The notes under the pieces: model-generated
The model's input: the letters and a program-made list of their open reading frames with translations, nothing else
Databases searched by the model: none
What the model was told of the DNA's origin: nothing
Part shown: piece after piece, positions 38,400 to 64,000 of the stretch
How positions within the stretch are numbered: the stretch's first letter is position 1
Layout of the letters: every line of letters starts with the position of its first letter
Assembly: GCA_902618025.1 (NCBI GenBank)
Contig: CACMYY010000001.1
Location: 1-64,000 of the forward strand
Length of the DNA stretch: 64,000 nt
Direction of reading: 5' to 3'
DNA from: an uncultured SAR116 cluster alpha proteobacterium
GTDB lineage: Bacteria > Pseudomonadota > Alphaproteobacteria > Puniceispirillales > Marisalimonadaceae
Position numbers and translations under genes: made by a program

Positions 38400-40175
38400 T
38401 TATTTATTTTCAAATGAAATCATGCTTCCATACGAACCACTTCTTAGCCTAGTGTAATGAAAATTACATAAGGGATCATCAGGATATGTGTCCTTTAGTT
38501 TCTTAAATTTTTTTATTGATAGGTCTTTGTTAATATTTAACTGATCATAAGCTTGTTTATATTCTTTAATTGGAGCTTGTTTTTTGTCGTTAATTATTGG
38601 TTCAAATGCGCCAATGGGTTTTGATTTTCCCTTAAATATTAATTCGCCAATTGGTCTAAATTCTAAAGTAGTTAATTTCTTTGATATTTCTTCTGAAACA
38701 CACATTCTTGTACCAAGTTTTTTGTTTATTTGTTCCATTCTAGATGCAGTGTTAACCAAATCCCCTTGCACTGTATAGTCAAAAAATGACTCACCTCCAA
38801 AATTCCCCACAATAGCGTTACCAGTATGAACAGCAATTCTGGTATTTCCAAAATTTAAATTTTTGTTAATTTGTTCATCTTTAAATTTCCTGCAAAAATC
38901 GTCAATTTCTAGAGCACAGTTCATTGCAGATAAACAATGATTAGCATTTTCAATGGGAGCACCAAAAAATGCTAATAGTGCATCCCCAATAATTTTATCT
39001 ATTGTACCACCATGTTTAAGTACCAATTTGCATAAACCATCCAAGTAGCTATTTAGAATCGGAAGTACTATAGAGGGTTCTGTTTGTTCTATCAATTCAG
39101 TAAATTTTTCAAGGTCAGTGAAAATAATTGTAATCTCTTGCCTTTTCCCTCCTAAAATTAACTGACTAGGATTTTTAATTAATTCATTAACTACTACCTC
39201 TGGAACAAATTTAGAAAATGCTTCCTTTATAAATTTATTCTGTTGTTTCTCCTTATCAATAGATTGTTTTTTAAAAATTCCTGATTTTATTCTGGCTCTT
39301 AATAATTTTAGATTCACTGGCTTAGGTAAGTAATCATCAGCCCCAGCCTCTATACATTTAGTAATGCTAGAAGTGTCATCTAATGCAGACATCATTATTA
39401 CTGGCATATCTTTTAATTCTTTATCATTTTTCATTTCTATTAAAACCTCAATGCCAGATTTGTTAGGCATTATCACATCTAATAAGATAAGATCAAAATT
39501 TTTCATTCTCATTAAATCTAAAGCTTCTTTGCCATCGACAGCCTCTGATATTTCATGACCGTCAGCTTTTAAATGTCTCGAAACTAATTCTCTATTAATT
39601 TGAATATCGTCAACAATCAATATGTGACCCGTGTCGATTTCATTTGAATTTTCATCGCTATTGTTTGATGAAATAAGCTTTTCAAGATCTTTTAATATTT
39701 TCTTATTGAAAAAAGTGTCTTTGGCATTATCAATTTTTGTTGTTGAAAAATCAATAATGTTTCCAATTTTTTCTAAAAAATCATTACTTGCTTTAATTAT
39801 AAATTTTAAATCTTGAAAGATCTGCTTATCATTCAATTCCGATAAATCTTCTAGCAAAATTTCACTATATCCTCTAATTGCATTTATTGGGGTTCTTAGA
39901 TCATGTCGGATTTTACTTTCGATTTCTTTTAAAGAATCATTTGAATTAAAATTTTTATTTTCTGGGTTTAATAAATCAGATACTAATTGCATTAAATTAT
40001 TTGAAGCAGTAATAATATTTTCACAATCAGTTATCTCATCCTTAAGATTTTTATTTTTAAAATTCTGTAGTAAAAGCTCACTATAGCTATAAATGATCTC
40101 AGCTGGTGAGAGGAGTTCTTGCTTTATATTAGCAATTTTAATTTTTTGGTCAGTAGTTAAGTCTAAGTTTTTCAT
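38400..40175 (-). CDS. phosphorelay protein: two HisKA-like domains, receiver, adenylate cyclase
   Basis: A 591-residue cytoplasmic protein. Residues 80-145 form a HisKA-type dimer domain with His91 (RHDLRTPINAI) but no ATPase domain follows. Residues 10-70 look like a second, degenerate copy (KQELLSPAEIIYSYSELL) with Gln19 in place of the histidine. The receiver covers about 184-300 with Asp233 as phosphoacceptor. The class III cyclase domain (about 345-530) has metal aspartates Asp354 and Asp398. It is the last gene of an operon whose first gene is a hybrid kinase, so phosphoryl flow may control cAMP production. Confidence 0.88.
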   Translation of the reverse strand: MKNLDLTTDQKIKIANIKQELLSPAEIIYSYSELLLQNFKNKNLKDEITDCENIITASNNLMQLVSDLLNPENKNFNSNDSLKEIESKIRHDLRTPINAIRGYSEILLEDLSELNDKQIFQDLKFIIKASNDFLEKIGNIIDFSTTKIDNAKDTFFNKKILKDLEKLISSNNSDENSNEIDTGHILIVDDIQINRELVSRHLKADGHEISEAVDGKEALDLMRMKNFDLILLDVIMPNKSGIEVLIEMKNDKELKDMPVIMMSALDDTSSITKCIEAGADDYLPKPVNLKLLRARIKSGIFKKQSIDKEKQQNKFIKEAFSKFVPEVVVNELIKNPSQLILGGKRQEITIIFTDLEKFTELIEQTEPSIVLPILNSYLDGLCKLVLKHGGTIDKIIGDALLAFFGAPIENANHCLSAMNCALEIDDFCRKFKDEQINKNLNFGNTRIAVHTGNAIVGNFGGESFFDYTVQGDLVNTASRMEQINKKLGTRMCVSEEISKKLTTLEFRPIGELIFKGKSKPIGAFEPIINDKKQAPIKEYKQAYDQLNINKDLSIKKFKKLKDTYPDDPLCNFHYTRLRSGSYGSMISFENK

Positions 40176-47643: not shown

Positions 47644-48972
47644 CTATTCACTCCCAATCCAAATATATCCGTCTTTATCCATTATTGGTAGTAAATGCAA
47701 TGGTATTTCTTTTATGGCTTTTGTCAGTTCTACAGCTTCTTCAGGTGCCCAGTCTGGACTAGTTATTACCCATTTTTTTACTGCGCCAGTTCTTAAACAA
47801 AATTTACTGTCATGGAATGGACACAAGAACTCGTTTTCTGTTGTAATCTGACCCATCTCAAGTGGTAAGTTCATGTGTGGACAAAGATTAGAAAAAGCTG
47901 AGAGGTTATCATTATTTCTAACGATTAATATTTCTTCGTCATTATGATTAATTTTCTTTTTATCTCCGTTATTTAAATCTTTAGATAACATAATTTTGTT
48001 CCAAAACATTCCGGACTCAAAAATTTTATCATCTTTCGATTCTAACAATTTTCCTTTCAATTTAGAAATTTCGTATAATGTCGACCTTTGAGATGAACCT
48101 TTTAATTTTACCCTAACAAAATCTTCAACTTCCGCTCTGTCCTCGATTTCTTTAAACGCTTCTTCTGAAATCAATAATCTTGTTTCAGCTTCTTTGTTAG
48201 CGGTTTCTACTCTACTAGCGATGTTGACTGATTGACCAATGATACTTAGACGTTGATTTCCAGCATTCCCAAGCATACCCACTATTGCTTCTCCATAGTG
48301 AACACCTACCCTTACATCAAAATTAATATTATAATTATCCAAAAAAACTTTTTTCTTTTTATCTACATCTTCTAAAATTTCTAATGCAGCTTGAATACAT
48401 CGATAAACAGAGTCTATTTTGTCATCTATACCGAAAGCAGCAAGAAATGCATCACCAATGAAATTATTGATATCACCGCCATTTTTTTTAACGATCGTTC
48501 CCATATCGTCAAAATATCTATTCAGGATGTACATAACATCATAAGAGGGTAATTGTTCACTTAATGGGGTAAATGAAACAATATCTACAAACATGAGAGC
48601 AAGATTTTTTGTACTCCCAATTGAACCAACTGAATTTTTGGTCATTTGATTAGCCAAAATCAAATCTTTTTGATCAAGTAATAATCTTTTAAGCTTTATA
48701 TTTCCTTTAGTTTTCGTTTGGCAAGCCAACCTTATATTAGATGGTAATTCTAGCTTTTCAGATAATTTTTGTTCAGATTTACTCTTTTGAGACAGATTGT
48801 CTTCACCTTCAAGAATTTCAACTCTGCATGTAGAACACATTCCTAGTCCACCACACGCATGTAGGTGTTGTATATCATTTCTTAAAGATGCAGTTAATAT
48901 AGTTTCATCTTTTGAAATTGATATCTCTGCATTGTCTGGTACCAATTCGATTTTAAATATGTTATCATTCAT
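47644..48972 (-). CDS. ferredoxin-adenylate cyclase-Rieske fusion
   Basis: A 442-residue soluble protein in three parts. Residues 1-95 form a plant-type [2Fe-2S] ferredoxin with Cys40, Cys46, Cys49 and Cys84. Residues 120-305 form a class III nucleotide cyclase with metal aspartates Asp130 (FVDIVSFT) and Asp174 (FIGDAFLAAFG). Residues 325-440 form a Rieske domain with Cys364-x-His366 and Cys384-x2-His387. All eight cluster ligands are present. Ferredoxin-cyclase proteins are known in alphaproteobacteria; the extra Rieske domain is unusual. cAMP production controlled by redox state or by cluster integrity is the obvious idea. Confidence 0.9.
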   Translation of the reverse strand: MNDNIFKIELVPDNAEISISKDETILTASLRNDIQHLHACGGLGMCSTCRVEILEGEDNLSQKSKSEQKLSEKLELPSNIRLACQTKTKGNIKLKRLLLDQKDLILANQMTKNSVGSIGSTKNLALMFVDIVSFTPLSEQLPSYDVMYILNRYFDDMGTIVKKNGGDINNFIGDAFLAAFGIDDKIDSVYRCIQAALEILEDVDKKKKVFLDNYNINFDVRVGVHYGEAIVGMLGNAGNQRLSIIGQSVNIASRVETANKEAETRLLISEEAFKEIEDRAEVEDFVRVKLKGSSQRSTLYEISKLKGKLLESKDDKIFESGMFWNKIMLSKDLNNGDKKKINHNDEEILIVRNNDNLSAFSNLCPHMNLPLEMGQITTENEFLCPFHDSKFCLRTGAVKKWVITSPDWAPEEAVELTKAIKEIPLHLLPIMDKDGYIWIGSE

Positions 48973-49368: not shown

Positions 49369-49755
49369 ATGTTAAAAAAAATAATTCTAATAATTTTGTT
49401 TAGTTTATATAACTTCAAAATATATGCATTCGAACCTTATTCAGGTATTTCATGCCATAGTGCTAAAATAAAGGACAAAGAAGAATATTTTTTTAAACAT
49501 GATGAAAATCATATTTATGCAACTGCTTACAAAAGGATTAATGGACAATTCATAAAGGTGGGAAATGTTGTTGGACAAAAAGTTTCATCTTTCTTACTGT
49601 TTGAAGATATGACAATCGATAAAAATTTAAATTTTGCGTGGCATCTGGATATGGTTACAAAAAATTTAAAACCATTTATACTAACTTTGGTCGATAAAAA
49701 TAAGTTTGAAATGCCAGAAAAATATGATTGCATAAGTAAAAATTTTTGGTTTTAG
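49369..49755 (+). CDS. exported orphan protein
   Basis: A 128-residue exported protein with a signal peptide (IILIILFSLYNFKIYA). The mature part is beta-rich with cysteines in GISCHSAK and KYDCISK. Similar in type to 32335-32781. Unknown function. It is followed within 20 bp by a cupin gene. Confidence 0.6.
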   Translation: MLKKIILIILFSLYNFKIYAFEPYSGISCHSAKIKDKEEYFFKHDENHIYATAYKRINGQFIKVGNVVGQKVSSFLLFEDMTIDKNLNFAWHLDMVTKNLKPFILTLVDKNKFEMPEKYDCISKNFWF

Positions 49756-49772
49756 TTAGCGAGCATTCAGAT

Positions 49773-50048
49773 ATGGCTAAGTCTCAAATAATGATAGATA
49801 ATGAAAAGACAAGAGTAACACGTTGGTCATTTGAGCCAGGTGAAGAGACTGGAAAACATGTCCACGAATATGATTATGTTGTAGTACCAATGATGGATGG
49901 TAGTCTCAAAATTGTAAATCATGATGGCGAAGTATCTTATTCAAATCTTTTTAAGGGAGTAAGTTACTTCAGAAAGAAAGGTGTTAATCATAACGTCATA
50001 AATCATAATGACTTTTCATATTCATTTGTTGAAATTGAATTCAAATAG
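49773..50048 (+). CDS. small cupin protein
   Basis: A 91-residue single-domain cupin. TRWSFEPGEETGKHVHEYDY is cupin motif 1, with both histidines (H-V-H) and the acidic partner, and VNHNVINHNDFSYSFVEI motif 2. The ATG at 49773 is preferred; a TTG at 49746 would run into the preceding gene. Ligand or reaction unknown. Confidence 0.78.
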   Translation: MAKSQIMIDNEKTRVTRWSFEPGEETGKHVHEYDYVVVPMMDGSLKIVNHDGEVSYSNLFKGVSYFRKKGVNHNVINHNDFSYSFVEIEFK

Positions 50049-50070
50049 GAAAAAATATTAAGGTAAGAAA

Positions 50071-50400
50071 ATGAGTGATTCTAAGCTTATAAGTTATATT
50101 ACTTCAGACTTTCAAACAAAGAGTGATATGAAAGTTGGTGAGATGGAATGGGAAAAAATCATGAATAAAAATTTTGAAAAATTCAAAAAAGCAGGCGCAC
50201 TTAGGCAAACGGTTTCTCAAATATGGAATAAAGAAGGTACACTAAGGTTAGGTCATTTGTGGGAATATAAAGATGAAAACGCTTTTGTAGAGTGTCAAAA
50301 AATTTTTAAAGAAGCAGAGTTAGAATTCAAAAATAAAACAGGTATTGTATGGAAGGTCTTTTCTAATAGGGGTGTCGTTTTATATGACGTAAATTATTAA
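50071..50400 (+). CDS. alpha/beta-barrel protein, QIWN family member 4
   Basis: A 109-residue protein with VSQIWNKEGTLRLGHLWEYK, AFVECQ and NRGVVLYDV. It is the closest relative of the copy at 33184. AGGTAAGAAA precedes the ATG. This copy sits outside the caspase island, so it may be the ancestral member. Followed by a TPR gene that overlaps its stop. Confidence 0.75.
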   Translation: MSDSKLISYITSDFQTKSDMKVGEMEWEKIMNKNFEKFKKAGALRQTVSQIWNKEGTLRLGHLWEYKDENAFVECQKIFKEAELEFKNKTGIVWKVFSNRGVVLYDVNY

Positions 50401-50984
50401 TGATTTATAATTCAGTAAAAAACACATTTTATAAATTATTTACATTAAATAAAATTTTTATAATTTTAATAGTTATCTTTGTTAATTTTTCACATAATTC
50501 TCATTCTTCTGAATTAGACAACCTTTTCTTGAAATTAAAACAATCAACTAATCCCACTTTAGCAATGGACTATGAGGCTAAAATATGGAAGTTATGGCTT
50601 AATAATGGATCGACTAAAAGTAGTAATAGTCAAATGCAGAAGGGTTTAGAATTATTACAAAATGGTAAATTAGACAGAGCGCTTTTACTTTTTAAAAAAT
50701 TATCGAAAAAAGAACCTGTGTGGGCAGAGCCTATTAATAAGATTGCAACCATTAAGTTTTTGCAAGGTGATTATATAGGTTCAATAAATGACATCAAATT
50801 AACTTTAAAATTAGAGCCAAGGCATTTTGGGGCTATTTCAGGACTTGTTCAAATTAATATTATATTTAAGGAATACAAGCAGGCGCTAAATAATCTAAAT
50901 TATGTTCTTAAAATACACCCATTTATAGGTATAAAAAAATTAAGACCATATATTCAAAATTTATTAAAAAAATCGTCTGTATGA
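50400..50984 (+). CDS. exported TPR protein
   Basis: A 194-residue protein with an N-terminal signal/anchor helix (IFIILIVIFVNFSH) and three TPR-like repeats. KIWKLWLNNGS, NKIATIKFLQGDY and LKLEPRHFGAISGL are typical of a conserved alphaproteobacterial periplasmic TPR family. Role unknown. Its start overlaps the stop of the preceding gene. Confidence 0.8.
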   Translation: MIYNSVKNTFYKLFTLNKIFIILIVIFVNFSHNSHSSELDNLFLKLKQSTNPTLAMDYEAKIWKLWLNNGSTKSSNSQMQKGLELLQNGKLDRALLLFKKLSKKEPVWAEPINKIATIKFLQGDYIGSINDIKLTLKLEPRHFGAISGLVQINIIFKEYKQALNNLNYVLKIHPFIGIKKLRPYIQNLLKKSSV

Positions 50985-51111
50985 ATTAGCTTTTTAGAAA
51001 ACACAAATTTGTTCTTACTGATTTAGACCTTCAATAGAGAAATTGGTAGAAGATAAGATTGTTTTATTTTTTTAATTTTATTTATTTTAAGAATTATATT
51101 ATGTTTTAAAG

Positions 51112-51546
51112 ATGGGAAATAATTATTTACCAATTATCGAAAAATGGGTTCGTAAGTTTATTGATACTATGAATGTTGATGTGTTAGACGGATACGCCAA
51201 ACCTGGTGAAGATTTTGGAGAAGTACCAAAAGGAATAAAAATAATCTTCGATGGATATGGTTACAATGAAAGTACTGATCAAGAAGATGACAATAGCATG
51301 ATTACATTTGCTATTTTTGTGCATAAGAACTCTTTAACTGAAAATTTTCCAGAGCATGACTCAAATTTTGACATGATATTGCATAGACCATCAGAGGAAT
51401 GTTATATCTCTGCTTGGTATAATGTAAAAGAAAACTATATTGAAGTTTTACCATTTGAAGATATGGAAAGAACTGAGTTAGATCCCAATTTTGTAATTGA
51501 TTTAATCTTTAAAATTGATAGCAGAAAACCATATATTCCTGCTTAA
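51112..51546 (+). CDS. orphan protein
   Basis: A 144-residue soluble acidic protein with IEKWVRKFIDTMNVDVLDGY at the start and IIFDGYGYNES later. Not recognised; no signal peptide. It is monocistronic with gene-free sequence (51547-51720) after it. Confidence 0.6.
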   Translation: MGNNYLPIIEKWVRKFIDTMNVDVLDGYAKPGEDFGEVPKGIKIIFDGYGYNESTDQEDDNSMITFAIFVHKNSLTENFPEHDSNFDMILHRPSEECYISAWYNVKENYIEVLPFEDMERTELDPNFVIDLIFKIDSRKPYIPA

Positions 51547-51720
51547 TTATATTTTAGTTATAAAATTTGTCAAAGGTCCATTATAGATAATAATTATTAT
51601 TTTTATCATAAATTTTCAAGATAATACTGTTGCAAATTTGAAGTGTTCATTTAATTATGAAAAAATAATGTAATTTAAAATTAAAAAAATCAATATTATT
51701 ATATTCACCTTTTTATATAT

Positions 51721-53142
51721 TTATTTTGAGTTTATTAGTTTGTGTTCTAAATGTGAATAAATGTAATAATAAATATCTTTCATTGATAATAAATGCATTT
51801 CTGGAACTTCGTTTATAATATCAAAATTTGCTTTTATCGATTTTGTCAGAGATAAGAATTGAGTGAAATTTTCACATAAGTTCAATAGGTAAGTTTCAGG
51901 TTTAATGATTTTGAAATCATACTTTATTTTACTTTGCGATAACTCACTAATTAAAGCGCATACAAGTAAATTGCATTTTAAAATATAATCTTTTGGTAAT
52001 TCCGGAAAATAATCATTTTCTGAATCCGATGAAAAGCTCAACTTTTCGTTAACATTTTCGTTATAGTAACTACTAATAAAATCTTTTTTTTGTAATTTAT
52101 CCATTTGGATTGCTTTATTGAGTTTCATTTTTAAATCATCATTAATTAAAAATTTGTGATATGAATATTTTTCAAAGTTTTCTTTGCTTACATCAATGAC
52201 TTCAGATGTGACAACGCAAAAGTTAAAATTAATATAATTAAAAGGAAAACTTCTTAAAAAATTCATAATTGAGTCAACGTTGATTAATTTGATTTTTTGT
52301 ATCCATTCATTTATTTGTGATCTGGTAAATGAGTCTAATGTATCATCTTCGGGTATACCTATTAATGCATATATATATACACATATATCAAGTTCAGTTA
52401 ATGATCTAGTATTGGGTAATCTTTTTTCAATTTCTGGTGCTTCACAAATAAAGCTCTTAAATGTTAGTTTATTAAATCGTTTATATGTAATATCTGATAG
52501 TGTTTCATCAGATTCTAATTTTTTTAGTTCAGCATTTAATAGTAAATCCAGATATTTTGTTATGCCCTCGTTCCATTCAACCGGTTGAGATTGAAATTTT
52601 TGATAATCTTTCATAAATTTTATTTTTATTTTTTTTTCCCATAAATCTTTTTCATTTGTATCTAATAAACCTAATTCATTCTTGGAAAGCATTGTTACAT
52701 ACCGGTTACCAAATGTTTCTGACCAATTATCTTTTTTTTGAGCTTCATTTAACCCATTATCAAGGTATTTGAAAAGTTCGTCTTTCGAAAATTTTGTAAC
52801 TTGATTTTTTTTTAGGCTATAAAAATAGCTTTTACTATCTAGGTATTCATAGCTAAAAAGAATAATTCCTTCACTTTCTGAATAAAATAATTGTACTTCA
52901 ATACTAGTTAAGTCTTCATCTAAGAATGAAGAACTCAAAAATTTTTTTAAATTTTTATAACTTTGCCCTGTTCCATTTTGATCAACATTTTTATACATTT
53001 CTGTAATTTTCATTGGGCATTCAAAACAGTGTAAAAACAGATTATTTATCTTGTTTTCATTTTCTTTAATCCATGACTTAAAGTATTCAATTATCATACT
53101 GTACTCATTGACTATCACGATGTTAAAATTTAACATACACAT
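51721..53142 (-). CDS. orphan protein divergent from the STAND-sigma gene
   Basis: A 473-residue soluble protein, mostly helical, with no motif I recognise. It has no signal peptide, P-loop or zinc ligands in a clear set; cysteines occur in HCFECPMK. A later ATG at 53097 (SMIIEYF) could be the real start. The 44-bp gap to the divergent 1373-residue gene must hold both promoters, a layout typical of a gene pair with linked function. Confidence 0.65.
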   Translation of the reverse strand: MCMLNFNIVIVNEYSMIIEYFKSWIKENENKINNLFLHCFECPMKITEMYKNVDQNGTGQSYKNLKKFLSSSFLDEDLTSIEVQLFYSESEGIILFSYEYLDSKSYFYSLKKNQVTKFSKDELFKYLDNGLNEAQKKDNWSETFGNRYVTMLSKNELGLLDTNEKDLWEKKIKIKFMKDYQKFQSQPVEWNEGITKYLDLLLNAELKKLESDETLSDITYKRFNKLTFKSFICEAPEIEKRLPNTRSLTELDICVYIYALIGIPEDDTLDSFTRSQINEWIQKIKLINVDSIMNFLRSFPFNYINFNFCVVTSEVIDVSKENFEKYSYHKFLINDDLKMKLNKAIQMDKLQKKDFISSYYNENVNEKLSFSSDSENDYFPELPKDYILKCNLLVCALISELSQSKIKYDFKIIKPETYLLNLCENFTQFLSLTKSIKANFDIINEVPEMHLLSMKDIYYYIYSHLEHKLINSK

Positions 53143-53186
53143 TAATTATAAATAAAAAAAAAACAAATATTTCATAGAGAATATAA

Positions 53187-56100
53187 TTGGATATATTGAA
53201 ATGGTTAGACGAATTAGGATTATCTCGTTATACAGATACTCTTTCTGAATTTCCTATTGAAGATATAATTGAATTTACGGATGACGATTTCAAAGAACTT
53301 GGCGTTCTTACACCTCATCGTAAAAAACTTCTTGTTGCAATAAAAAACCTTAAAATTACATCAGCATCTGAAAATAATTTATCATATAGAAATACAGAAA
53401 CAGCATCCAGTTTGTTTTCCAAATTTATTAGAGATCTTCCCCAAGTTATAGCCATACCCCTTCATGAATATGCAGAAGAGGATCATCCTGGCATGAAACT
53501 TTGGGCAGCATGTGATGCAGTTGAGTTGTTACTGAAATTTTTAGTGATTATAGGTGCTGCTGATAGAAGGCAACACGGTGAGCTAGATGATAAACTATTA
53601 AAAGAGCTTTGGGGTAAAATTGAGATGCCTACGCTTGGTGCTTGGTTGTCTATGGCTATATCTTTATCACAATCCAAAATCAAAAATGACCTAATTATGC
53701 CTGAGATAGACCAGTATGTAAATGCTACTTTAAAAACACTACTTTATGGACCAGACAATCCAGGAACAGCAGACACATCATTTTTAAAACTTCGCAACCG
53801 TCTTGCACACGGAGGGGGATTAACAAGAAAAGAGGCTGAGCGTTTAATATCCATCTGGAAAGACCCATTTGAAAAGACTATTGAAGCATTAGATTGGTTA
53901 AGAGATATTAAAATTATTGGTCTTGATAATAATGTTCCGATGGAATTAAAAGGGACATCAGATAATTTAATAGCTGCTGATAATTTAGATATATCCCAAT
54001 TTAAAGGTGATGGCGATGGAGTATGGCTTATAAAAGGTGGTAATACATTATCCTTATGGCCAATGGCATTATTTGGATATCCTTCAGTATCAAATGCGAA
54101 GGGTAATGTTGAAACAGGCGACATCAACTCAATCCAAATATATATTCGCAAAGACGTTGTGCAACTTCAATTTACACCACTTGGAGCAGAAGGCTTTAGT
54201 CACTCAGAAGCTGGCGTGTCTGCCGTTGAAGCTTTTAAGTCATTATTTAGTTTAAAACGTGCAAACCAGAAAGCATCTGAGAAGGCATTTAAAATACAAG
54301 ATTTTGGACGAGAGATCCAAAAAGATGCCAATCAAATGGTAGGACGCTTTGAAGAACAAGAGCATATAGAAAACAGCTTTAAAGATATAGAGCAGGGGAT
54401 AGTGTGGATTACAGGTCCTGCAGGCATAGGTAAATCATTTTTAGTGGCACGATTAGCACAACATCTTATTGATAATAATAAAGATAAAAACAAGATAATC
54501 CTTCCTTATAGATTTAAATCTGGAGACGACGCACGCTGTAGTCGAGATGCCTTTGCAACTTTTACTATTGAAAGACTAGTAGCTATGGGTGCGTTGATTG
54601 ACAATGCTAAGATAGAAGAAAAAGGGAAAGCTGAAGATCGACTAAAAGCCTGCCTCAATTATCTGAATAAAGATAAAAAAGTCATCTTTGTTCTAGATGG
54701 ATTAGACGAACTTCTTTCGAAAGATACGACCTTTGCTGAGGATATTCCTTTAGGATTAGACTCAACGCGTATTATTTGGGTTTGCTCTGGCCGTCCTGAA
54801 TCAGAACTTGAGAAAGTATTTAATAATCCTCGCGTAATAAATCCATATCCTAATGGTCTCCCAGCCATGCAAATCCAAGACATAAGAAGTATGTTGTTAG
54901 AACGTATTGGCTTGTTTAGAAACAAACTTCTTGCAGGAGATAAAGAAAAAGGTGATGAAGTCGTTAATCCATTTATTGATCTTGTTGCTAAGAGAGCTGA
55001 AGGACTACCACTCTTTGTAAATTATGTGACCCAAGATGTACAACAAGGTAATTATCCATTAGATGGGACAGCTAACTTACCCAAGGGTTTAACAGCTTAC
55101 CATGAGAAGTTAATAGAAGGATTAGAAGTAGGTGCCTTAAAAGAACTATTAACGCCCCTTGTAGCCACATTAGCAATGGCAAATGAGCCTCTGTCAGAAC
55201 AAGAAATAATAACGTTTTTAAGGCTAAGAGATAGAATACCAGACGGTGAGGCAGGAGATAAATTAGTAACAAAAGGTCTGGCTGCTATAGCAAGCATATT
55301 AAGGCGCGCTCCTGATCCTGAAGGAGAAGATGGTTATATGTTGCATCATCTATCACTAAGGGAACATATACTAACGACAGAGACAATGAGTTTTCCAGTA
55401 GAGCAGGCAAGGAAAGCCTTTGCGAAAGCAGCTATGAGCCCAGATGAAGAAGCGTCTATATCGAATTACTTATATAGAACAGGAATAGATCATCTTATTG
55501 ATGCTGGTAAATTAAAAACAGCGGGTGAATTTCTTATTGATTTTGATAGATTAGAAACAATGTTTGCACTAGGAAAAACAACCTCAGATATAAACGGTTA
55601 TTGGAATAAACTACCAATTAGTACAAATCAATTAGATGCAATCTATTTAAATCAATTTGTACCAATACCTATTTTATCATATGAAGAATTCGGAGATGGT
55701 AAAGACTGGTCTAATTTTGTTAAAAATGAAATCTATGATTCAGAAGATTCTAATTTTTTATCAAATTTAGAAGATTTTTGGTTATTAGAATCACAAAAAG
55801 TTTCTGCTGAAGAAGCGAATAAAGATTTATCTCACAATGAAATAGAATTACAAAGCGAATTTGATAATCTTCTAGATGATTCTGAAGATCTTACCGATTT
55901 TTTTGAAGAGAGTTCAACAAATAAAAATGAGGACTTCTTCTCTTATTGTCGTACTAAGGCCAAAGAATATATCGAAATAGAAGAGACAGGTTTAAGACTA
56001 TCATTGTACTATCAATTATCAGAATTTTTTTTACTAGCAAAATTAACACACTCAGGAGTTGAAATTTGCAAAAGAATTTGTAGGTCTTTGTTAGCTGAGT

Positions 56101-57308
56101 TAGGGCCTGAGAAACCTGAAACAATAATGGCACATGCCCGCCTTTCTGCATTTTATGCCCAGTGGGATGGACAAGATTTAGAAACTGAGATTAATGAACA
56201 CCATTTATTTTATAATAATAAAATTGGTACAATTTATTTAAAGGCAGGGGCATCTTTTATGGTACCATCGCCGTACTACGCCCCTGAAATTTTTAGATAC
56301 TGTTTAAAGTTAATATGCGATAAGGTTGGTTTGAAAAGCTCTTTACTATCAACTTTACTTTCCAGTCCTGCCCTAATACTGCCTGCTGTTGGGAAACTCA
56401 ATATCAAAGTTCAAAATAAAACGATAATGAATGTATCTGATCTTTTAAGGGAATTGTTTCATATTTCTACTAACGATAAGGGTAAAAACCATTTATCTAC
56501 TATTGAAATTAATCTGAATTTAGCTAATCGTTTATATTTTGAATTAAATATCAAAGAAGCATATTTAGTAGTTGAAGAGGTTTATAAGAATCTTTTTAAG
56601 TTATTTGGTTTAAACGACCATAGATCTATTAAAGCTCTTGAAATAAAAGGGAACATCGCATTTGAACTTGGAAATTTTCAAAGTGCTAAGGATATCTTTG
56701 AAATTTTAATAAAAAACACAGACAAAAAATATTTAAATCCATCACTTTTAAACGAATGGTCTACTAAATTAGCTATTATAGAATTTACTTTTAAAAATTT
56801 TGAAGAAGCAGAAAATTTATGTCAAAAAGGACTATTATATTTTGATGACGTCAAATCAAATTATTCTTATTCTATATCAGATGATAGAATTTTTATTTTG
56901 ATTAGGTCAATGTTAAGTGAAATTAAAAATACTTCAAACATATTAAATGCTTCAACAAAAGACATGGATGAAGATTTTAATAAAATTATAGATTTTTATT
57001 TGGAGAAGGGTCTTTATGAGAGTTGTTTGTTTTATTTATATGATCAAGAACCTAATAATAAAATTAATATTACAGAAATTCTAAAATTTATGCGAATACT
57101 AAAACTGTATAGAACACCTGGATTTTCCAATAATTTTAATTTTTTAATATCTAGAATGTCACCCCGACAAGAAAGAATTATACGAATGCGCTACAAGATA
57201 GGTACAAATACAACTCACAGTATTAAAGAATTAGCTACCCAATTTAATGAAAGTCATGAGCAAATAAAACTACAAATTATAGATGCATTAAATAAAATTA
57301 GATTATAA
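53187..57308 (+). CDS. SAM-HEPN-like-STAND NTPase-TPR-sigma4 protein
   Basis: A 1373-residue soluble protein starting with TTG. Residues 3-56 form a SAM domain (WLDELGLSRYTDTL). Residues 100-240 are helical and end with RNRLAHG (203-209), the RX4H motif of HEPN-type RNases. The STAND-type NTPase begins at about 384 with Walker A GPAGIGKS (410-417) and Walker B IFVLDGLDE (500-508), followed by a CSGRPES sensor-like stretch. Residues 930-1250 carry TPR-like helices. Residues 1324-1373 closely resemble sigma-70 region 4: RQERIIRMRYKIG, HSIKELATQF, ALNKIRL. The first 2.4 kb looks richer in GC than the rest. A signal-sensing conflict or regulatory protein is likely. Confidence 0.88.
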   Translation: MDILKWLDELGLSRYTDTLSEFPIEDIIEFTDDDFKELGVLTPHRKKLLVAIKNLKITSASENNLSYRNTETASSLFSKFIRDLPQVIAIPLHEYAEEDHPGMKLWAACDAVELLLKFLVIIGAADRRQHGELDDKLLKELWGKIEMPTLGAWLSMAISLSQSKIKNDLIMPEIDQYVNATLKTLLYGPDNPGTADTSFLKLRNRLAHGGGLTRKEAERLISIWKDPFEKTIEALDWLRDIKIIGLDNNVPMELKGTSDNLIAADNLDISQFKGDGDGVWLIKGGNTLSLWPMALFGYPSVSNAKGNVETGDINSIQIYIRKDVVQLQFTPLGAEGFSHSEAGVSAVEAFKSLFSLKRANQKASEKAFKIQDFGREIQKDANQMVGRFEEQEHIENSFKDIEQGIVWITGPAGIGKSFLVARLAQHLIDNNKDKNKIILPYRFKSGDDARCSRDAFATFTIERLVAMGALIDNAKIEEKGKAEDRLKACLNYLNKDKKVIFVLDGLDELLSKDTTFAEDIPLGLDSTRIIWVCSGRPESELEKVFNNPRVINPYPNGLPAMQIQDIRSMLLERIGLFRNKLLAGDKEKGDEVVNPFIDLVAKRAEGLPLFVNYVTQDVQQGNYPLDGTANLPKGLTAYHEKLIEGLEVGALKELLTPLVATLAMANEPLSEQEIITFLRLRDRIPDGEAGDKLVTKGLAAIASILRRAPDPEGEDGYMLHHLSLREHILTTETMSFPVEQARKAFAKAAMSPDEEASISNYLYRTGIDHLIDAGKLKTAGEFLIDFDRLETMFALGKTTSDINGYWNKLPISTNQLDAIYLNQFVPIPILSYEEFGDGKDWSNFVKNEIYDSEDSNFLSNLEDFWLLESQKVSAEEANKDLSHNEIELQSEFDNLLDDSEDLTDFFEESSTNKNEDFFSYCRTKAKEYIEIEETGLRLSLYYQLSEFFLLAKLTHSGVEICKRICRSLLAELGPEKPETIMAHARLSAFYAQWDGQDLETEINEHHLFYNNKIGTIYLKAGASFMVPSPYYAPEIFRYCLKLICDKVGLKSSLLSTLLSSPALILPAVGKLNIKVQNKTIMNVSDLLRELFHISTNDKGKNHLSTIEINLNLANRLYFELNIKEAYLVVEEVYKNLFKLFGLNDHRSIKALEIKGNIAFELGNFQSAKDIFEILIKNTDKKYLNPSLLNEWSTKLAIIEFTFKNFEEAENLCQKGLLYFDDVKSNYSYSISDDRIFILIRSMLSEIKNTSNILNASTKDMDEDFNKIIDFYLEKGLYESCLFYLYDQEPNNKINITEILKFMRILKLYRTPGFSNNFNFLISRMSPRQERIIRMRYKIGTNTTHSIKELATQFNESHEQIKLQIIDALNKIRL

Positions 57309-57449
57309 CGAAAAAAACATCTAGAAAAAAATATAATATTAGTATGTATTATTCAAACATCAAAAATAATTTTTAAAATTTTGATAAATCACATAGTTAA
57401 TCTTATCGAAAATAATTTCTTTTATCTAGTAGATTTCAATAAATACATA

Positions 57450-57674
57450 CTAACTTTCTTGTAAAAAAAATTCTTTCCATTTTTCAATACCACTTTCAAT
57501 TAAAATATGATTATGAACACGTATAGGTGATTCATCACTTAAAATATATTTTAGCAATTTATCAGCATCTTCAACTGAATTTAAATTTTCTGATGTGAAA
57601 TCATCTACTAAGTTATACATTTTATCCCAAAGTCCCTCTAAATTATCTTGTAAATTTATTAGTTTTTCATCCAT
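57450..57674 (-). CDS. small orphan acidic protein
   Basis: A 74-residue soluble helical protein (MDEKLINLQDNLEGLWDKM ... GIEKWKEFFLQES). GAAAATC precedes the start. Not recognised. It lies 45 bp after the P-loop kinase gene on the same strand and may be its partner. Confidence 0.55.
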   Translation of the reverse strand: MDEKLINLQDNLEGLWDKMYNLVDDFTSENLNSVEDADKLLKYILSDESPIRVHNHILIESGIEKWKEFFLQES

Positions 57675-57719
57675 TTGATTTTCCTTTTTTTTGTTATTCC
57701 TTTAAGACAAAAAGATTTT

Positions 57720-58118
57720 TTACCTTAATTTTACATCAAATCTATTGTTCATATCTTTAATTGTTGACGTTGGTACTTTATGAATTGATTTTCCGTTATG
57801 CCTGTTTTCTATAATCATAGATATAAACTTTATACCCATTTTATTAGCAAGATTTTGATATTCTTGGACTTCATCAATAGTTGTCATTGTATTGCTTACA
57901 ATTACAGATTTACCACTTTCTAATTCTTGTTTTACAGATTCATAACAATATTGATGAGCTTTTTTTAGTAATTTGTGATCAAACTTGTTGTTATTAAACT
58001 TTTCAAAATATTGATCAGCTTCATAAAAATTTAAATTTAATGATTTTGCGAATGATGTTTTTCCAGAGCCTGGTAAACCTCTTATTGCATAAAGTGTAAT
58101 TTCATCACTTTTAATCAT
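57720..58118 (-). CDS. PNK-like P-loop kinase (AAA_33 / N4BP2-type)
   Basis: A 132-residue P-loop protein. RGLPGSGKTSFAKSL is Walker A, EADQYF the acidic strand after it, and VIVSNTMTTIDEVQEY the segment where such kinases have DNT. The last third has HKVPTSTIKDMNNRF, conserved in N4BP2-like proteins. The family is related to the 5'-kinase of T4 Pnkp and phosphorylates nucleic acid ends or small molecules. It is 8 bp after the 1271-residue protein gene. Confidence 0.8.
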   Translation of the reverse strand: MIKSDEITLYAIRGLPGSGKTSFAKSLNLNFYEADQYFEKFNNNKFDHKLLKKAHQYCYESVKQELESGKSVIVSNTMTTIDEVQEYQNLANKMGIKFISMIIENRHNGKSIHKVPTSTIKDMNNRFDVKLR

Positions 58119-58126
58119 TTATAAAT

Positions 58127-61100
58127 TTATCCTAATATTTCTCTAATTTTACTTTTAGTTAGCAAATTTTTTTTAAAGTTCGATATAAACGCTTTTTTAA
58201 ATATATTTTGAAAAAATTTGTTTTCAATTTTACCAAATTTTTTAATTAAGTTAAAAAGCTCTTTTGAATATCCCAAGTATGATTTTTCATCTTTTTCATA
58301 TTTAGCAATTTCCATTAAGTCTGCGTATGACGTAAAAATTTGTATTTTACTACCGTCATCTATCTTGTTTTGAATATATTTTATGTTTTCAGTGTAGAGA
58401 TTTTTACTTACATCTAAACTAGTTATGTCAGATTTATTTGATTTAAACAAACTAAAGTAAATTTTGGCCAGGTAGTTCTTAGACATAATAATTCCAAAAA
58501 CATCATTTAATTCTTTATTGAGTTTTAACCAACTATTACAGCTTTCTAAAACTTTAATTGATATTGGTTCTTTTTCATAATACATTCTTGTAAGTGAACC
58601 ATATGATCTTGCCAAGCCTGGTTTGTCACTTAAAATTTCTTTTATTTCTATAGATTTTATAATTAGAGATTCAGTAGTTTTATCTTTTGGAAAGTTGTTG
58701 CCATATGATGTAAAAATTCTTGAGCTGACAGCTAAATAGTCATTATCTTTTTTATATTTTAGTTTGTTAATGCTTTTCAAAAGCATTTTTTTCCCAAGTT
58801 CTTTATTTTGGTTATAATATATTTCAATCAACGCTGAATAGTGATCAATGTCATAAAACAACCATTCTGGTAATTCTTTTTCCTTTTTTAAATCTTTTAT
58901 AAATTTTATTAATTTTGGATATTCTCTCGCATTATACAATGTTCGCATAGCAGGATAAATGAGTTTAGTTTTATAATCGTCAAGATCTAACCAGTTATCT
59001 AAAAGATTTGTAATACCTTCACTATCATTAAGCCCAGAATGAAATACTTTTTCAAATTGAATAAAATATTTTTCTACAGTTATATCATTTAAAAGTTTAT
59101 TGTAATTAGCGCCATTATAAATTTTTAGGTAATTTTGGCATTTATTTGCTATTATATTAGCTCTTTCAAACTGATTTAATACACATAAATTTCCAATTAA
59201 ATCCAACCCAGAATAGAATATTTGTTCAATATGATTATAGCCACTTTTTTCAAATAGATTAAAGATCCGTTCGCTCTCAAGTGCAAAATCACTTTGAGAG
59301 TTTTTTAATGCTGATGCTGCAGTAAAGCAACATGTCCTTTGTGTTAAAGGAATATTTTCTAAATCATTATTTAATAAAAATATATTTATTAAAGCATTTA
59401 GAGTTGCTCTATTTCTAAACTTAATTTTATTATTTGGGTTTGGTAAGCTCTCAAAAATACCTGTTTTAAAGCTAATTTCCTCTATTTTTTTAGCTGTTTC
59501 AATTAAATTTAACCCTGTAGCATTAGAGAGAACTTTTAGCTCAAATTGATACCCTAGGCAAGAAGCTATCATTAAAAATGTTTTATATTCATCATTACTT
59601 TTTAAGTTTTCATTAATAGTTACTTCTAATGAATTGACTTGACTTTTTAGGACATTTTCGTCTAGATCTTCATTATTAGATAGATACCATGTTTTATCAA
59701 AGTAAATTAATTTATTTAGTTTTAGGTTCTCAAAAGTTATCTCAATATCGTCCAATGTTGTTTGATCATCTGTTTTATCTAGGTATTTAATGATTTTTTC
59801 AGCAAGATCATGGCTAGCATCAAGTTGAATTTTAGTGTAGTCAATTAATTGATCATTTTTTAGATTTTCAAGTTCAACTTTAGTTTCAATATTGAGATAA
59901 ATTGGTAATTTGTTTCCAATTAAAACAAAGCTTATTTCTTGATTTGTATTATAATCCTTAAGTTGATCTAACCATTTAGAGCTTTCATTATCTAAATAAT
60001 TTAATCCGGTAATAAGAACACAAGTATTTTCTTGATTTTTTATTTTTTCAAAAAACTCAAGACTAGCAGCTTCAAAAACGTTGCTTAGAGGTGTCTCTTG
60101 GTTGGATTGTGAGACAGCCATATTTAATAGGTTACTGAAAGGGATAAAATTTGTTATCGTTTCTATTGTACTTTCAATGGTCTCATTAGAAGCATTATTA
60201 ATTTGTTTATTTAATAATTGATTAACTAAATCAAAAGAAGAATTCTCGTTATTACATTCAATTTCTAAAAATGAAAATTTGTTAATATACTTTTGTTTTA
60301 AGTATATTTTTGCACTTGTTTCATCAATAGTTTTTAAAAAAGTGAAGCTGAGTTTTGATTTGTTATTTTTCCCTAATGTAAAATTTTGATTTATAAAAGG
60401 ATGTGTCCAATTTTCAGATGTTTTACTTTCTATAATTGATGTGTTTTGTATTTTTTTTTGTCTAAATAAAAATGCTAACAAGACGTTTCCAAAAAGAAAG
60501 GTGGATGTTAAATTGATATATTGAAAATTTAATGTTGTTATGCTCATAAAAAATATTACGACTAAAAAAATTGCAACATAACTAAATATATTAAACTTTG
60601 ATTTGTCTAATGCTTTGCCAAATATATAAAAGTTTAAAACAAACAAAATTGAAGGTATTACCAAACTATATAAGTCTGAGATTGATCCTTCATAAATAAT
60701 GAATGAGGTTAACATCCATGATACAATACTTAATGAAATTACTACTGAAATTATCCCAGAGTTATTAAAAATTAATTGAAAAAAATTGGATGATTTAAAC
60801 TTTAGCTTTAATGAATGTATTATTATAAATGGGAAATACAAATATACTACAGAAACTAAGAAAACATACCAAAAACTTAATATGGCTAGAGTTTCAGGAT
60901 TAGGCACTGTAATAAATGTATTTATAGCTGGCAAAACAATAAAAGGCACTATTCTTGAAACAACAAAGCTTAGAGATAATATAGATACAAACTCCAAATT
61001 TCTATTTGGATTGTAATTTGTTTTTTTCCTATAAATAAAAATTCCTATTACTAAAGATAACAAAAATAATGCAGAGTTTATTAAAATAATTGGGTTTAAC

Positions 61101-61942
61101 AAGTTTGATCTATCTCTAGAAAAGCCCATGTTTCTATATATTTTAAGAGGCTTATCAAAGTCAGGTTTATAATATGAACCTTTAATTACGTAAAAAGCAT
61201 CTCCCAAAAATGATTTATTTTTTTCAATAGTTACGATAAGCAGATCGTTTGTATCAAAAGATTTAAATAAAGCCTCTACATGAATTTTTTTATAGTTACC
61301 TGATTTAAAAATATTAATTTCGGCAGTGTTTAAATTACTTTTTATAAATGCATTATTAACCTCCTTTTGATTATGAACAAAAAATTGAGGATTTTGATTG
61401 AATAAATACAATGCCTCATTTTCTAGTGCATAATTAAGAGGTTGAGATGTAAATACTACATCTAATTGTTTTCTCTCTTTTTCTTCTAACGTTTTTATTA
61501 AACTTTCTACACCCCTATTTGAAGAAATAACTTGATGATCGTCAAAAAGTTCGAAGGTTCCAAAAGCGTTGGCATCTGTTAGGAAATTATTATTAAAGAA
61601 TCTAGCTAACGGAAAAATGCCATATAAAGTATCATAAGAAATATCTAGTTGTTGTAATATATCTTGTTTTAAACCGCTCAATTTTATTTTAATATCTTCT
61701 GGAAGGTTATGACTTTTTATTTTATCTTCTAAATTTTCAATCTTATTAAAAGCCTTAAGAAAAAGTTCATAGTTTCCTTTTTCTTCGAGACCTATCCAAT
61801 AATAAGATTCAATTGTGTTTAATTCATTTTCATACTTTGTTATTTTTTCATCAGAAATTGCTACATTTGAAAAAATGCAAAATAAGAGTAAATGTATAGG
61901 AATTGAAATGAATTTGAGTTTAAAATCTGATAATTTCATCAA
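58127..61942 (-). CDS. membrane protein with degenerate STAND/AAA-like domain and TPR-type helices
   Basis: A 1271-residue protein. A signal peptide or anchor (residues 11-30) is followed by about 250 extracytoplasmic residues and a block of seven or eight membrane helices from about 285 to 500. The cytoplasmic part has CVLITGLNYLDNESSKWLDQ, which looks like the Walker B strand and following helix of AAA_16-type ATPases (CVLITG... with Asp missing from the usual LEDLHW place). I see no Walker A. The last 450 residues are helical repeats of TPR type. It resembles transcription or cyclase regulators of the MalT kind, but without output domain. Unknown signal. Confidence 0.7.
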   Translation of the reverse strand: MMKLSDFKLKFISIPIHLLLFCIFSNVAISDEKITKYENELNTIESYYWIGLEEKGNYELFLKAFNKIENLEDKIKSHNLPEDIKIKLSGLKQDILQQLDISYDTLYGIFPLARFFNNNFLTDANAFGTFELFDDHQVISSNRGVESLIKTLEEKERKQLDVVFTSQPLNYALENEALYLFNQNPQFFVHNQKEVNNAFIKSNLNTAEINIFKSGNYKKIHVEALFKSFDTNDLLIVTIEKNKSFLGDAFYVIKGSYYKPDFDKPLKIYRNMGFSRDRSNLLNPIILINSALFLLSLVIGIFIYRKKTNYNPNRNLEFVSILSLSFVVSRIVPFIVLPAINTFITVPNPETLAILSFWYVFLVSVVYLYFPFIIIHSLKLKFKSSNFFQLIFNNSGIISVVISLSIVSWMLTSFIIYEGSISDLYSLVIPSILFVLNFYIFGKALDKSKFNIFSYVAIFLVVIFFMSITTLNFQYINLTSTFLFGNVLLAFLFRQKKIQNTSIIESKTSENWTHPFINQNFTLGKNNKSKLSFTFLKTIDETSAKIYLKQKYINKFSFLEIECNNENSSFDLVNQLLNKQINNASNETIESTIETITNFIPFSNLLNMAVSQSNQETPLSNVFEAASLEFFEKIKNQENTCVLITGLNYLDNESSKWLDQLKDYNTNQEISFVLIGNKLPIYLNIETKVELENLKNDQLIDYTKIQLDASHDLAEKIIKYLDKTDDQTTLDDIEITFENLKLNKLIYFDKTWYLSNNEDLDENVLKSQVNSLEVTINENLKSNDEYKTFLMIASCLGYQFELKVLSNATGLNLIETAKKIEEISFKTGIFESLPNPNNKIKFRNRATLNALINIFLLNNDLENIPLTQRTCCFTAASALKNSQSDFALESERIFNLFEKSGYNHIEQIFYSGLDLIGNLCVLNQFERANIIANKCQNYLKIYNGANYNKLLNDITVEKYFIQFEKVFHSGLNDSEGITNLLDNWLDLDDYKTKLIYPAMRTLYNAREYPKLIKFIKDLKKEKELPEWLFYDIDHYSALIEIYYNQNKELGKKMLLKSINKLKYKKDNDYLAVSSRIFTSYGNNFPKDKTTESLIIKSIEIKEILSDKPGLARSYGSLTRMYYEKEPISIKVLESCNSWLKLNKELNDVFGIIMSKNYLAKIYFSLFKSNKSDITSLDVSKNLYTENIKYIQNKIDDGSKIQIFTSYADLMEIAKYEKDEKSYLGYSKELFNLIKKFGKIENKFFQNIFKKAFISNFKKNLLTKSKIREILG

Positions 61943-61992
61943 ATTTTTTCCATTCTTTATTTAAAAATTTAAAATGGCATAATTTTTAAATT

Positions 61993-62232
61993 TTATAAAT
62001 TTAAAAGTTTTAAAAGTTCGAATTTTTTATCAAGTTTTTCTTCAAAATCAATATCTTCATCAATTGCTTTAGTTTCATGTTCATAACAACTAAAACAAAG
62101 TTCAATTTTTCTGCCTTTTTTTGATTTAAAAACTTTTATTGGAATTGTTTCAAAGTTGAAATCTGGATGCGGGTTTTTTGTTCTCTTACACCACATGCAT
62201 CTTGCATCATTTTTATTATAGATAAAGGACAC
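61993..62232 (-). CDS. small zinc-ribbon protein
   Basis: A 79-residue protein. CMWCKRTKNPH and LCFSCYEHE hold two CxxC pairs about 35 residues apart, a likely zinc site of the kind seen in HNH-like or zinc-ribbon proteins, though no HNH catalytic residues can be made out. The rest is acidic helix. It is 11 bp after the sodium-channel gene on the same strand and may be translated with it. Confidence 0.65.
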   Translation of the reverse strand: MSFIYNKNDARCMWCKRTKNPHPDFNFETIPIKVFKSKKGRKIELCFSCYEHETKAIDEDIDFEEKLDKKFELLKLLNL

Positions 62233-62243
62233 TAATATCTCAT

Positions 62244-63023
62244 TTATTTTTTATTTAACAATTTTGTTATTTCTTTCAATTGTAATTCCATAGATATTAT
62301 TTTTTTTTGCAAATCTAGTTCAGATTTTTTTTCTTCATGATTACCATCTTTTGATATTTGTTGCATTGCATCTACAATTATACCTATAAACAAGTTTAGT
62401 ATTGCAAATGTTGTAACTAAGATAAAGGGCACAAAAAACAACCAGGCTAATGGAAATTCTTGCATTACTGGCCTTACTATACCCATTGACCAACTTTCTA
62501 AAGTCATTATTTGGAAAAGTGTATACATTGAATTTCCAATTGTGCCAAACCATTCATAAAATCTTTCTCCAAAAAAAGTAGTAGTAAGGACTGAAGAAAT
62601 ATAAAATATCAATATAATAATTGTTCCAACAGACAAAATGCCAGGAATAGAAATAAATATAGCTTGTATTATCCTCTTCATTGACGGGACAATTGATAAC
62701 AATCTTAAAGTTCTAAAAATACGAAAGGCTCTTAAAACTGAGAATGGACCTGATGCAGGAATAAGAGAAACTGCTACAATTAAAAAATCAAAAATATTCC
62801 AACCATCTTTAAAAAATCTTAGTTTGTAAACTGCAATTTTTGAAATTAATTCAATTGTAAAAATTGTTAATGCAACTCTATCAATTATAGACAAAATAAT
62901 ACCAAATTCTTCTTTAATTTTAGGACTGGTCTCTAGTCCGAGAGTAATAGCATTAATTATAATTACTATTGTTATAAAAGTAACAAAATACTTATTCTCT
63001 AAAATTTTTTTAATTGAATCCAT
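62244..63023 (-). CDS. bacterial voltage-gated sodium channel (NaChBac type)
   Basis: A 259-residue six-helix channel subunit. The S4 sensor has four arginines at three-residue spacing (98, 101, 104, 107: RAFRIFRTLR). The selectivity filter is TLESWS at 174-179, exactly that of NaChBac-type sodium channels. S6 ends AILNLFIGIIVDAMQQ, and a short coiled coil follows (about 230-258), which holds the tetramer together. In marine bacteria such channels take part in motility and sodium homeostasis. Confidence 0.95.
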   Translation of the reverse strand: MDSIKKILENKYFVTFITIVIIINAITLGLETSPKIKEEFGIILSIIDRVALTIFTIELISKIAVYKLRFFKDGWNIFDFLIVAVSLIPASGPFSVLRAFRIFRTLRLLSIVPSMKRIIQAIFISIPGILSVGTIIILIFYISSVLTTTFFGERFYEWFGTIGNSMYTLFQIMTLESWSMGIVRPVMQEFPLAWLFFVPFILVTTFAILNLFIGIIVDAMQQISKDGNHEEKKSELDLQKKIISMELQLKEITKLLNKK

Positions 63024-63180
63024 CAGAATAGTTTAAAATATGTTTTAAATTGTTTTAATAAAATTTTAGAATTTTACAAGTGTAAAAGATTTAGTAATGT
63101 CATTAAAAGTTTAAAGCTTTACCATAAATAAATTCTTTGATTAAATACTAAATATCTAAATTTAGTTATAGGTGAATTTA

Positions 63181-63525
63181 ATGTATGTAAGGACCATAAA
63201 AATAACATTTAAAGATAAAATGTCTAAAAATATGTTTGTTAATTACACTGATACTAAAGCAGATGCTGAGGGTTTTCAAAATGGTACACTGATGAAATTA
63301 ATTTTTAGTAATTCTGATGTAATTGCTACTTTGGTTCCGATTTTTCCAGATCATAAAACATTTGTGAGAGATCATAATAATACAGCTGGTCCCATAATAG
63401 ATTCTTTTAAAGAACAAGGTTTAAAGATTGAGCTAAATGACGGTGAAGTTTCAGGTACAACAGCTGTATCATCCAAATTTTTAGAAATCTTAACTAAAGA
63501 GGGCACCTTTTATAAAAGTGACTAG
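63181..63525 (+). CDS. small alpha/beta-barrel-like protein, orphan
   Basis: A 114-residue soluble protein (MYVRTIKITFKDKMSKN at the start, GTLMKLIFSNSD and LKIELNDGEVSG later), with the order expected for a dimeric alpha/beta barrel of the ABM kind. ATAGGTGA precedes ATG 63181; the GTG at 63172 would add three residues. No family or active site recognised. Confidence 0.65.
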   Translation: MYVRTIKITFKDKMSKNMFVNYTDTKADAEGFQNGTLMKLIFSNSDVIATLVPIFPDHKTFVRDHNNTAGPIIDSFKEQGLKIELNDGEVSGTTAVSSKFLEILTKEGTFYKSD

Positions 63526-63559
63526 TCAAATATCAATAAGATTATTGTGATGAAAATCA

Positions 63560-63757
63560 ATGAGTAATTGGAAAAATGATTTTGAGGTAAAATTTTCACT
63601 TGAATTCAAGCATTTTAATGGAAGAAAAGAAATTAAAAATAATACGTTGATTGTAGAAGCAGAAAGTGAAGATAAAGCAATTGAAATGATAATAAATCAA
63701 TATGATAATAGCGTATTTTTAAAAATAGATGAGGTTAAGAAAATTTGGAGCTACTGA
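63560..63757 (+). CDS. small orphan protein
   Basis: A 65-residue frame (MSNWKNDFEVKFSLEFKHF ... IDEVKKIWSY) with a strand, helix, strand pattern. ATGAAAATCA before it has no clear ribosome-binding site. Its stop overlaps the next gene by 13 bp. Confidence 0.5.
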   Translation: MSNWKNDFEVKFSLEFKHFNGRKEIKNNTLIVEAESEDKAIEMIINQYDNSVFLKIDEVKKIWSY

Positions 63758-64000
63758 TTGCTAAATTATCCAAAGATAAATTTGAAATTACTGTTAAAGC
63801 AAATCAAATCACTAAACATGTTGTTTACGTCACTGATGAAATGCTTTTCAACCTAACTAAGAATAAAATTTCAAAAAAAGAACTTTTAAATTTTAGTTTT
63901 AATTTTCTCCTTGAAAGAGAGACAAATACTTCGATACTTTCTTCTTTTGATCTTACAGTGATCTCAAAATATTTTCCTGAATATACAAAAAAAGTTAGTC
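63745..64000 (+). CDS. conserved family protein, 3' end outside window
   Basis: The frame from TTG at 63745 runs open to the end of the window (85 codons). ITKHVVYVTDEMLFNL then FNFLLERETNTSILSSFD and ISKYFPEY are features I have seen in a small conserved bacterial family of unknown role. Starts inside the end of the previous gene. Confidence 0.6.
   Translation, partial: MELLIAKLSKDKFEITVKANQITKHVVYVTDEMLFNLTKNKISKKELLNFSFNFLLERETNTSILSSFDLTVISKYFPEYTKKVS

Follow-up and report, generated by a model that had tools for sequence, protein, structure and literature searches.

Why should a receptor-like nucleoside triphosphatase (NTPase) end in a piece of a primary sigma factor? The question is raised by one gene in a 64,000-nucleotide stretch of contig CACMYY010000001.1 (the window) from an uncultured alphaproteobacterium of the SAR116 cluster. 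Its product is a STAND/NACHT protein with a SAM domain and a HEPN-like helical domain at the N-terminus, a central NACHT NTPase and a long C-terminal half closing on a sigma-70 region 4 domain (sigma4, hereafter the tail). Our answer, to which we assign a probability of about 0.5, is that the protein would be an NLR-like immune receptor whose exchangeable sensor carries a captured sigma4, either as bait or as a contact to RNA polymerase. Any answer has to accommodate the architecture, the primary-sigma tail and its conservation, the exchange of the tail with the sensor half, the loss of most residues that read the -35 element and the location in a genomic island, all of which are established.

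An earlier note, made from the letters of the window, had described the end of the protein as region 4 of a primary sigma factor, and both the domain and its primary type were borne out. The Pfam model Sigma70_r4 matched the tail with an E-value of 8.6e-6 and 25.6 bits (gathering cut-off 24.1), which improved to 1.3e-7 when the last 83 residues were searched alone; the absence of such a profile match was one of the two outcomes that the note had named as fatal to its proposal. Among the NCBIfam sigma models RpoD was best (3.5e-6), ahead of the general extracytoplasmic function (ECF) type (1e-4) and RpoH (0.012), and the closest solved chain in a PDB comparison was an RpoD, 7ye1_F (7.7e-8). Against a hidden Markov model (HMM) of region 4 built from alphaproteobacterial (SAR116) RpoD of the fetched relatives, the tail scored 44.2 bits and the tails of its homologues in genomes G022 and G036 53.2 and 38.8 bits, respectively. 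Of 20,000 shuffled tails none scored above 11.7 bits, so that chance resemblance was rejected, and no other frame of the window and the adjoining 16 kb exceeded 4 bits. The relation to RpoD was significant over about 52 residues and best to RpoDs with a GxGMNTDH loop, while sigma regions 2 and 3 gave no Pfam match in the protein. The tail is genuinely a region 4 of the primary-sigma type.

Relatives were sought among 136 genomes of the order (SAR116), where the protein was present in four genomes of one genus. A full-length copy in G036 (AG-430-M22, a single-cell genome by its name) was 89-90% identical to that of the window genome (G000), tail included, and a full-length homologue in G022, a metagenome-assembled genome, was 46-47% identical with a tail (MTPRQQRCVRMRYGYGMNTTHSLDEIATQF...) that also passed the Pfam cut-off. 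The assembly or frameshift artefact that the earlier note had allowed for is rejected, as the tail is intact both on a contig of a single-cell genome and in a metagenome-assembled genome that has diverged. Wider searches added little. A search of 84,980 species genomes with an alignment of the C-terminal half, pattern-based and of limited reach, returned only G036 and G022, and viral contigs searched with the full protein or with the C-terminal or N-terminal alignment held no relatives. Across the class, the tailed module as query brought up, among the matches listed, nothing beyond short hits to the tail in proteins of RpoD size. With the engine (the N-terminal part with the NTPase) or the tail-less module as query, 398 genomes of the phylum yielded only the protein itself and one TPR protein, which was of the CHAT type by eye and was set aside as unrelated. 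The plasmid search found only a Caballeronia megaplasmid protein matching the engine part alone, 32% identical over residues 81-805, without a SAM domain and with a different C-terminus lacking sigma4.

The remainder of the protein is of a recognisable kind. The homologues in G036 and G011 start at the same leucine codon position as the TTG of the window gene. The SAM domain and both Walker motifs were found where the earlier note had placed them (Walker A GPAGIGKS, Walker B VIFVLDGLDE), with NPHP3_N (3.9e-10) and NACHT (5.9e-8) matches in Pfam at residues 401-515 and a SAM_1 match of 2.4e-17 in the homologue L034. With a NACHT-type NTPase carrying both motifs, the protein is predicted to be of the bacterial NACHT (NLR-related) type, and bacterial NACHT proteins are its closest kind. 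Within the helical domain that follows SAM, the RNRLAHGGG stretch was invariant across all relatives including one 35% identical, so that an Rx4-6H motif of the HEPN type is conserved to that distance, and the best HEPN profile in Pfam was a weak HEPN_RiboL-PSP (E=0.03). The HEPN label therefore stood for the motif; profile and fold comparisons did not extend it, and an RNase activity of the domain would be a prediction from the motif. The TPR-like helices described earlier fared similarly: the C-terminal half is helical, TPR_12 was marginal at E=0.03 in the window protein, and unambiguous TPRs were found in sister proteins.

Comparison of the four genomes located the tail in a replaceable part of the protein. 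DNA of G011 was collinear with the window and 82-87% identical over 49517-55495 and 57709-63997, and the segment between was unaligned. The G011 protein was 89% identical over residues 1-809, continuing thereafter in TPR_12/TPR_10 repeats without sigma4, and the end of similarity lay at residue 809 and at DNA position 55495. A fragment on contig C153 of G022, which adjoins a homologue of the 1271-residue neighbour described below, matched residues 652-809 at 80% identity before entering yet another TPR array. Three C-termini thus occur on a conserved NTPase within one genus, as is expected of the variable sensor of STAND proteins. Since the same N-terminal engine has swapped C-termini in G011, the G022 fragment and Caballeronia, sigma4 is part of the recognition half that is exchanged and by these alignments travels with it rather than with the NTPase engine. 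The ratio of nonsynonymous to synonymous changes (dN/dS) between G000 and G036 was 0.05 for the HEPN-like domain, 0.08 for NACHT and 0.21 for the sensor body, and the sensor half changes faster than the engine part. The G+C content of codons 100-800 was mostly 34-41% in G000, G036 and G011 and that of the C-terminal part 21-35% (window, 29%), a profile that would be expected of a chimera. The engine part (53187-55495) had 37% G+C against 28% around it, which suggests import from a donor of higher G+C.

Residues of the three tails were compared with the cell's own RpoD (L002) in E. coli sigma70 numbering. The 548-582 stretch, comprising region 4.1 and the first helix of the helix-turn-helix (HTH), was identical at 15-18 of 32 positions, and the 583-599 stretch of the recognition helix at 4-5 of 17. 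In sigma70, R584, R588 and Q589 read the -35 element. Their equivalents were H, P or S, then K, and then L, M or K across the three tails, and among these positions and E585 only the last was kept, together with the HTH pattern. Relative to RpoD, the protein is without the other sigma regions, its recognition helix is mostly diverged, and no helix follows, as the chain stops at about residue 600, where the last helix of sigma70 would begin.

These changes bear on the earlier suggestion that the protein acts on host transcription or binds the -35 box. In such an output model sigma4 would be the effector, and the activated oligomer would bind -35 regions or RNA polymerase and reprogram transcription in the manner of MalT, which comes closest among the STAND regulators of transcription. 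MalT, itself a STAND protein, serves as a transcription factor, and STANDs with TPR sensors multimerise into hubs once induced (PMC4381067, PMC6468293, PMC10427625). In both proteins the sensor is helical and the C-terminus closes on an HTH; region 4 is an HTH that binds DNA, and the HTH pattern with E585 is kept in the tail. The HTH of MalT, however, is of the LuxR type and is a conserved output domain, whereas the tail is swapped along with the sensor, and sister proteins that share the NTPase lack it, although an effector would be expected to remain with its engine. A conserved candidate effector is already present at the N-terminus, and the majority of the base-reading residues have changed in each of the three tails. 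The output model is accordingly disfavoured, and we regard it as quite unlikely; loss of most -35-reading residues with better retention of region 4.1 argues against promoter binding in particular, and the earlier suggestion is weakened. Bait or polymerase contact would fit the anatomy better.

It could also be that the tail is a structural HTH with no sigma-related partner, serving only the packing or oligomerisation of the sensor. Divergence from RpoD (about 40% identity) and a dN/dS that is not low in the close pair are consistent with such a role. At 46-47% overall identity the primary-sigma signature residues RMRY, NTTH and QF are nevertheless still present, and the homologue in G022, although more diverged, has a tail that scores even better against RpoD than that of the window, which makes a purely structural role improbable.

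We therefore return to the reading of the protein as a receptor with a captured sigma4. The N-terminal SAM and HEPN-like domains would form the assembly and effector part, NACHT the switch and the C-terminal half the exchangeable recognition part, in which the terminal sigma4 would be a degenerate copy of the primary sigma domain put to use in recognition. The tail most likely would present the sigma4 face that is bound by anti-sigma proteins and by the beta-flap of RNA polymerase. A phage protein attacking sigma4, or a change in RNA polymerase during infection, would engage the tail, the NACHT module would open, the receptor would oligomerise and the N-terminal domain would fire. Phage proteins targeting sigma4 exist, as T4 AsiA is a ligand of both region 4.1 and region 4.2 of sigma70 (PMC2988021). 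That the tail is bait for an anti-sigma factor is a tentative proposal, more doubtful than probable, and that it is a polymerase contact is held to be unlikely. In a narrower and likewise unlikely form of the receptor reading, the tail would tether the receptor to the beta-flap, where it would sense phage modification or takeover of RNA polymerase, or would bring an RNase to nascent RNA. A tether is favoured by the better retention of region 4.1 within the tail and by the guarding of a host process described for bNACHT25 (DnaJ; PMC12169576), but the last sigma4 helix is missing, and residues of that helix serve as targets for MotA as well as for the beta-flap tip (Bonocora 2011, as cited in PMC6755090).

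Several observations weigh against the receptor reading. In all three tails Y occupies the position of F563, and in E. coli the F563Y change makes AsiA bind less well (PMC2988021), so that a ligand of the AsiA type would have to make its contact differently. The contrast between regions 4.1 and 4.2 comes from few residues, and the dN/dS of the tail between G000 and G036 was 0.6 (57 codons, few changes), so that constraint in the close pair is not strong. The tail is confined to two independent lineages, both of one SAR116 genus. The HEPN-like region was modelled by AlphaFold2 as a helical bundle (predicted local distance difference test score, pLDDT, 57) without a significant PDB match, and padloc recognised no defence family beyond shared P-loop and sigma stretches.

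Known systems share parts of this layout. No known family for the whole architecture was found in padloc, Pfam or NCBIfam, and in the searchable part of the open literature no STAND/NACHT protein bearing sigma4 or a decoy of sigma was found, in agreement with the earlier statement that no described system has this set of domains; the architecture is real and rare. Avs (AVAST) proteins have a STAND NTPase, an N-terminal effector and a large C-terminal sensor half, a layout that the window protein is predicted to share, although no padloc Avs model matched and no counterpart was found for the sigma4-bearing sensor. The tripartite layout with a central NACHT NTPase and variable flanking domains is that of bNACHT proteins such as bNACHT25. 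In that protein the effector is a PD-(D/E)XK nuclease and the helical domain at the C-terminus is NCH1, in place of the SAM and HEPN-like N-terminus and the sensor ending in sigma4. bNACHT25 senses indirectly through host DnaJ (PMC12169576), a precedent for sensing through a host component. Sigma region 4 also occurs in a defence context in MzaA of the MZA system, which matched weakly (6.8e-4) and in its sigma part only; MzaA is, in contrast, a sigma-factor-like protein of a multi-gene operon, and the two large neighbours scanned held no Mza component of an MzaA-E gene set. Plant NLRs with integrated decoys likewise fuse a host-protein domain into a receptor with the recognition part, by analogy only. 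The corresponding claim here, of a first bacterial NLR-type receptor with an integrated host-protein decoy, in which sigma70 region 4 would bait phage anti-sigma (sigma-hijacking) proteins and so trigger the receptor, the bait module as a whole being interchangeable from strain to strain, is doubtful in that complete form.

Table 1. Positions of the receptor gene, its domains and the surrounding island in the window
Feature	Position	Strand	Basis or remark
STAND/NACHT protein gene	53187..57308	+	1373 residues, TTG start, no internal stop
SAM domain, residues 3-56	53193..53354	+	Pfam SAM_2 3.9e-8
Helical domain, residues 81-245	53427..53921	+	RNRLAHGGG at 203-211 (HEPN-type Rx4H motif)
NACHT/STAND NTPase, residues 381-620 (about)	54327..55046	+	Walker A 410-417, Walker B 500-508
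Exchanged segment, C-terminal (recognition) half	55496..57708	+	replaced in G011 at the same locus
Sigma-70 region 4 domain, residues 1321-1372	57147..57302	+	Pfam PF04545; 4.1 and HTH, recognition helix is the last helix
Genomic island, ~11.1 kb	50978..62069	.	blastn of window and right flank against L068-L072
144-residue protein, no family	51112..51546	+	island cargo
473-residue protein, no family, divergently transcribed	51721..53142	-	optional cargo
132-residue AAA_33 kinase-like P-loop protein	57720..58118	-	AAA_33 1.2e-10; phrog_2071 5.2e-34
1271-residue predicted membrane protein, no known family	58127..61942	-	signal-like segment and 6 further transmembrane segments

The gene lies within a genomic island (Table 1). 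In five relatives of the genus without the island (L068-L072) the base matching 50977 joins the base matching 62070, except that in two of the five the junction bases match 50986 and 61991, and these empty sites carry about 110-140 bp between the junction bases. The flanks of the five were 82-93% identical to the window in DNA. Three of them, at 91-93%, resemble the window more than do G011 and G036, which carry the island (84-87%), so that presence of the island does not follow kinship. No integrase was recognised and no tRNA was found at the junctions. A defence function is suggested by the architecture and by this context. The protein might instead be a STAND regulator responding to a signal of housekeeping or stress, in keeping with the limited padloc matches and with the fact that no known defence gene was recognised among the island neighbours. 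A patchy island with empty sites, a recognition half that differs by exchange among close relatives and the higher G+C of the engine part all fit a conflict system better, and a role outside defence is considered unlikely.

The gene for the 473-residue protein was present in G011 and was not beside the G036 copy. The 132-residue protein is close to the phage protein family phrog_2071, and its gene was kept beside the STAND gene in four loci at this same place. The 1271-residue protein has a Walker-B-like stretch (CVLITGLNYLDNESSKWL) without a clear P-loop and matched no Pfam family; it is possibly a degenerate AAA_16/STAND membrane protein. Its gene and the STAND gene were found in the same 4 of 40 genomes of the genus, and the flanking cyclase gene was 91-97% identical in many genomes without either. 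Downstream of the second STAND copy of G022 (C159), whose short contig continues for ~2.6 kb, no 1271-residue gene was present, so an obligate pairing of the two was rejected and a functional pairing is not needed. Shared island residence explains their co-occurrence, and a functional pairing is possible. An open reading frame adjoining the tailed homologue of G022 (L034:4309-4953) had a GIY-YIG-type look by eye. Outside the island, a fusion of 2Fe-2S ferredoxin, adenylate/guanylate cyclase and Rieske domains (47644-48972, minus strand) was conserved in many genomes of the genus, and HisKA, response-regulator and adenylate/guanylate cyclase domains were combined in one protein at 38400-40175 (minus strand).

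How bacterial NLR-like proteins sense is known for a small number of sensor types. A receptor with a swappable sensor ending in sigma4 predicts that phage takeover of sigma would be the trigger, and G000 and G011 form a natural pair with the same engine at the same locus and a different sensor. If the receptor reading is true, the integrated-decoy principle of plant immunity would extend to bacteria.

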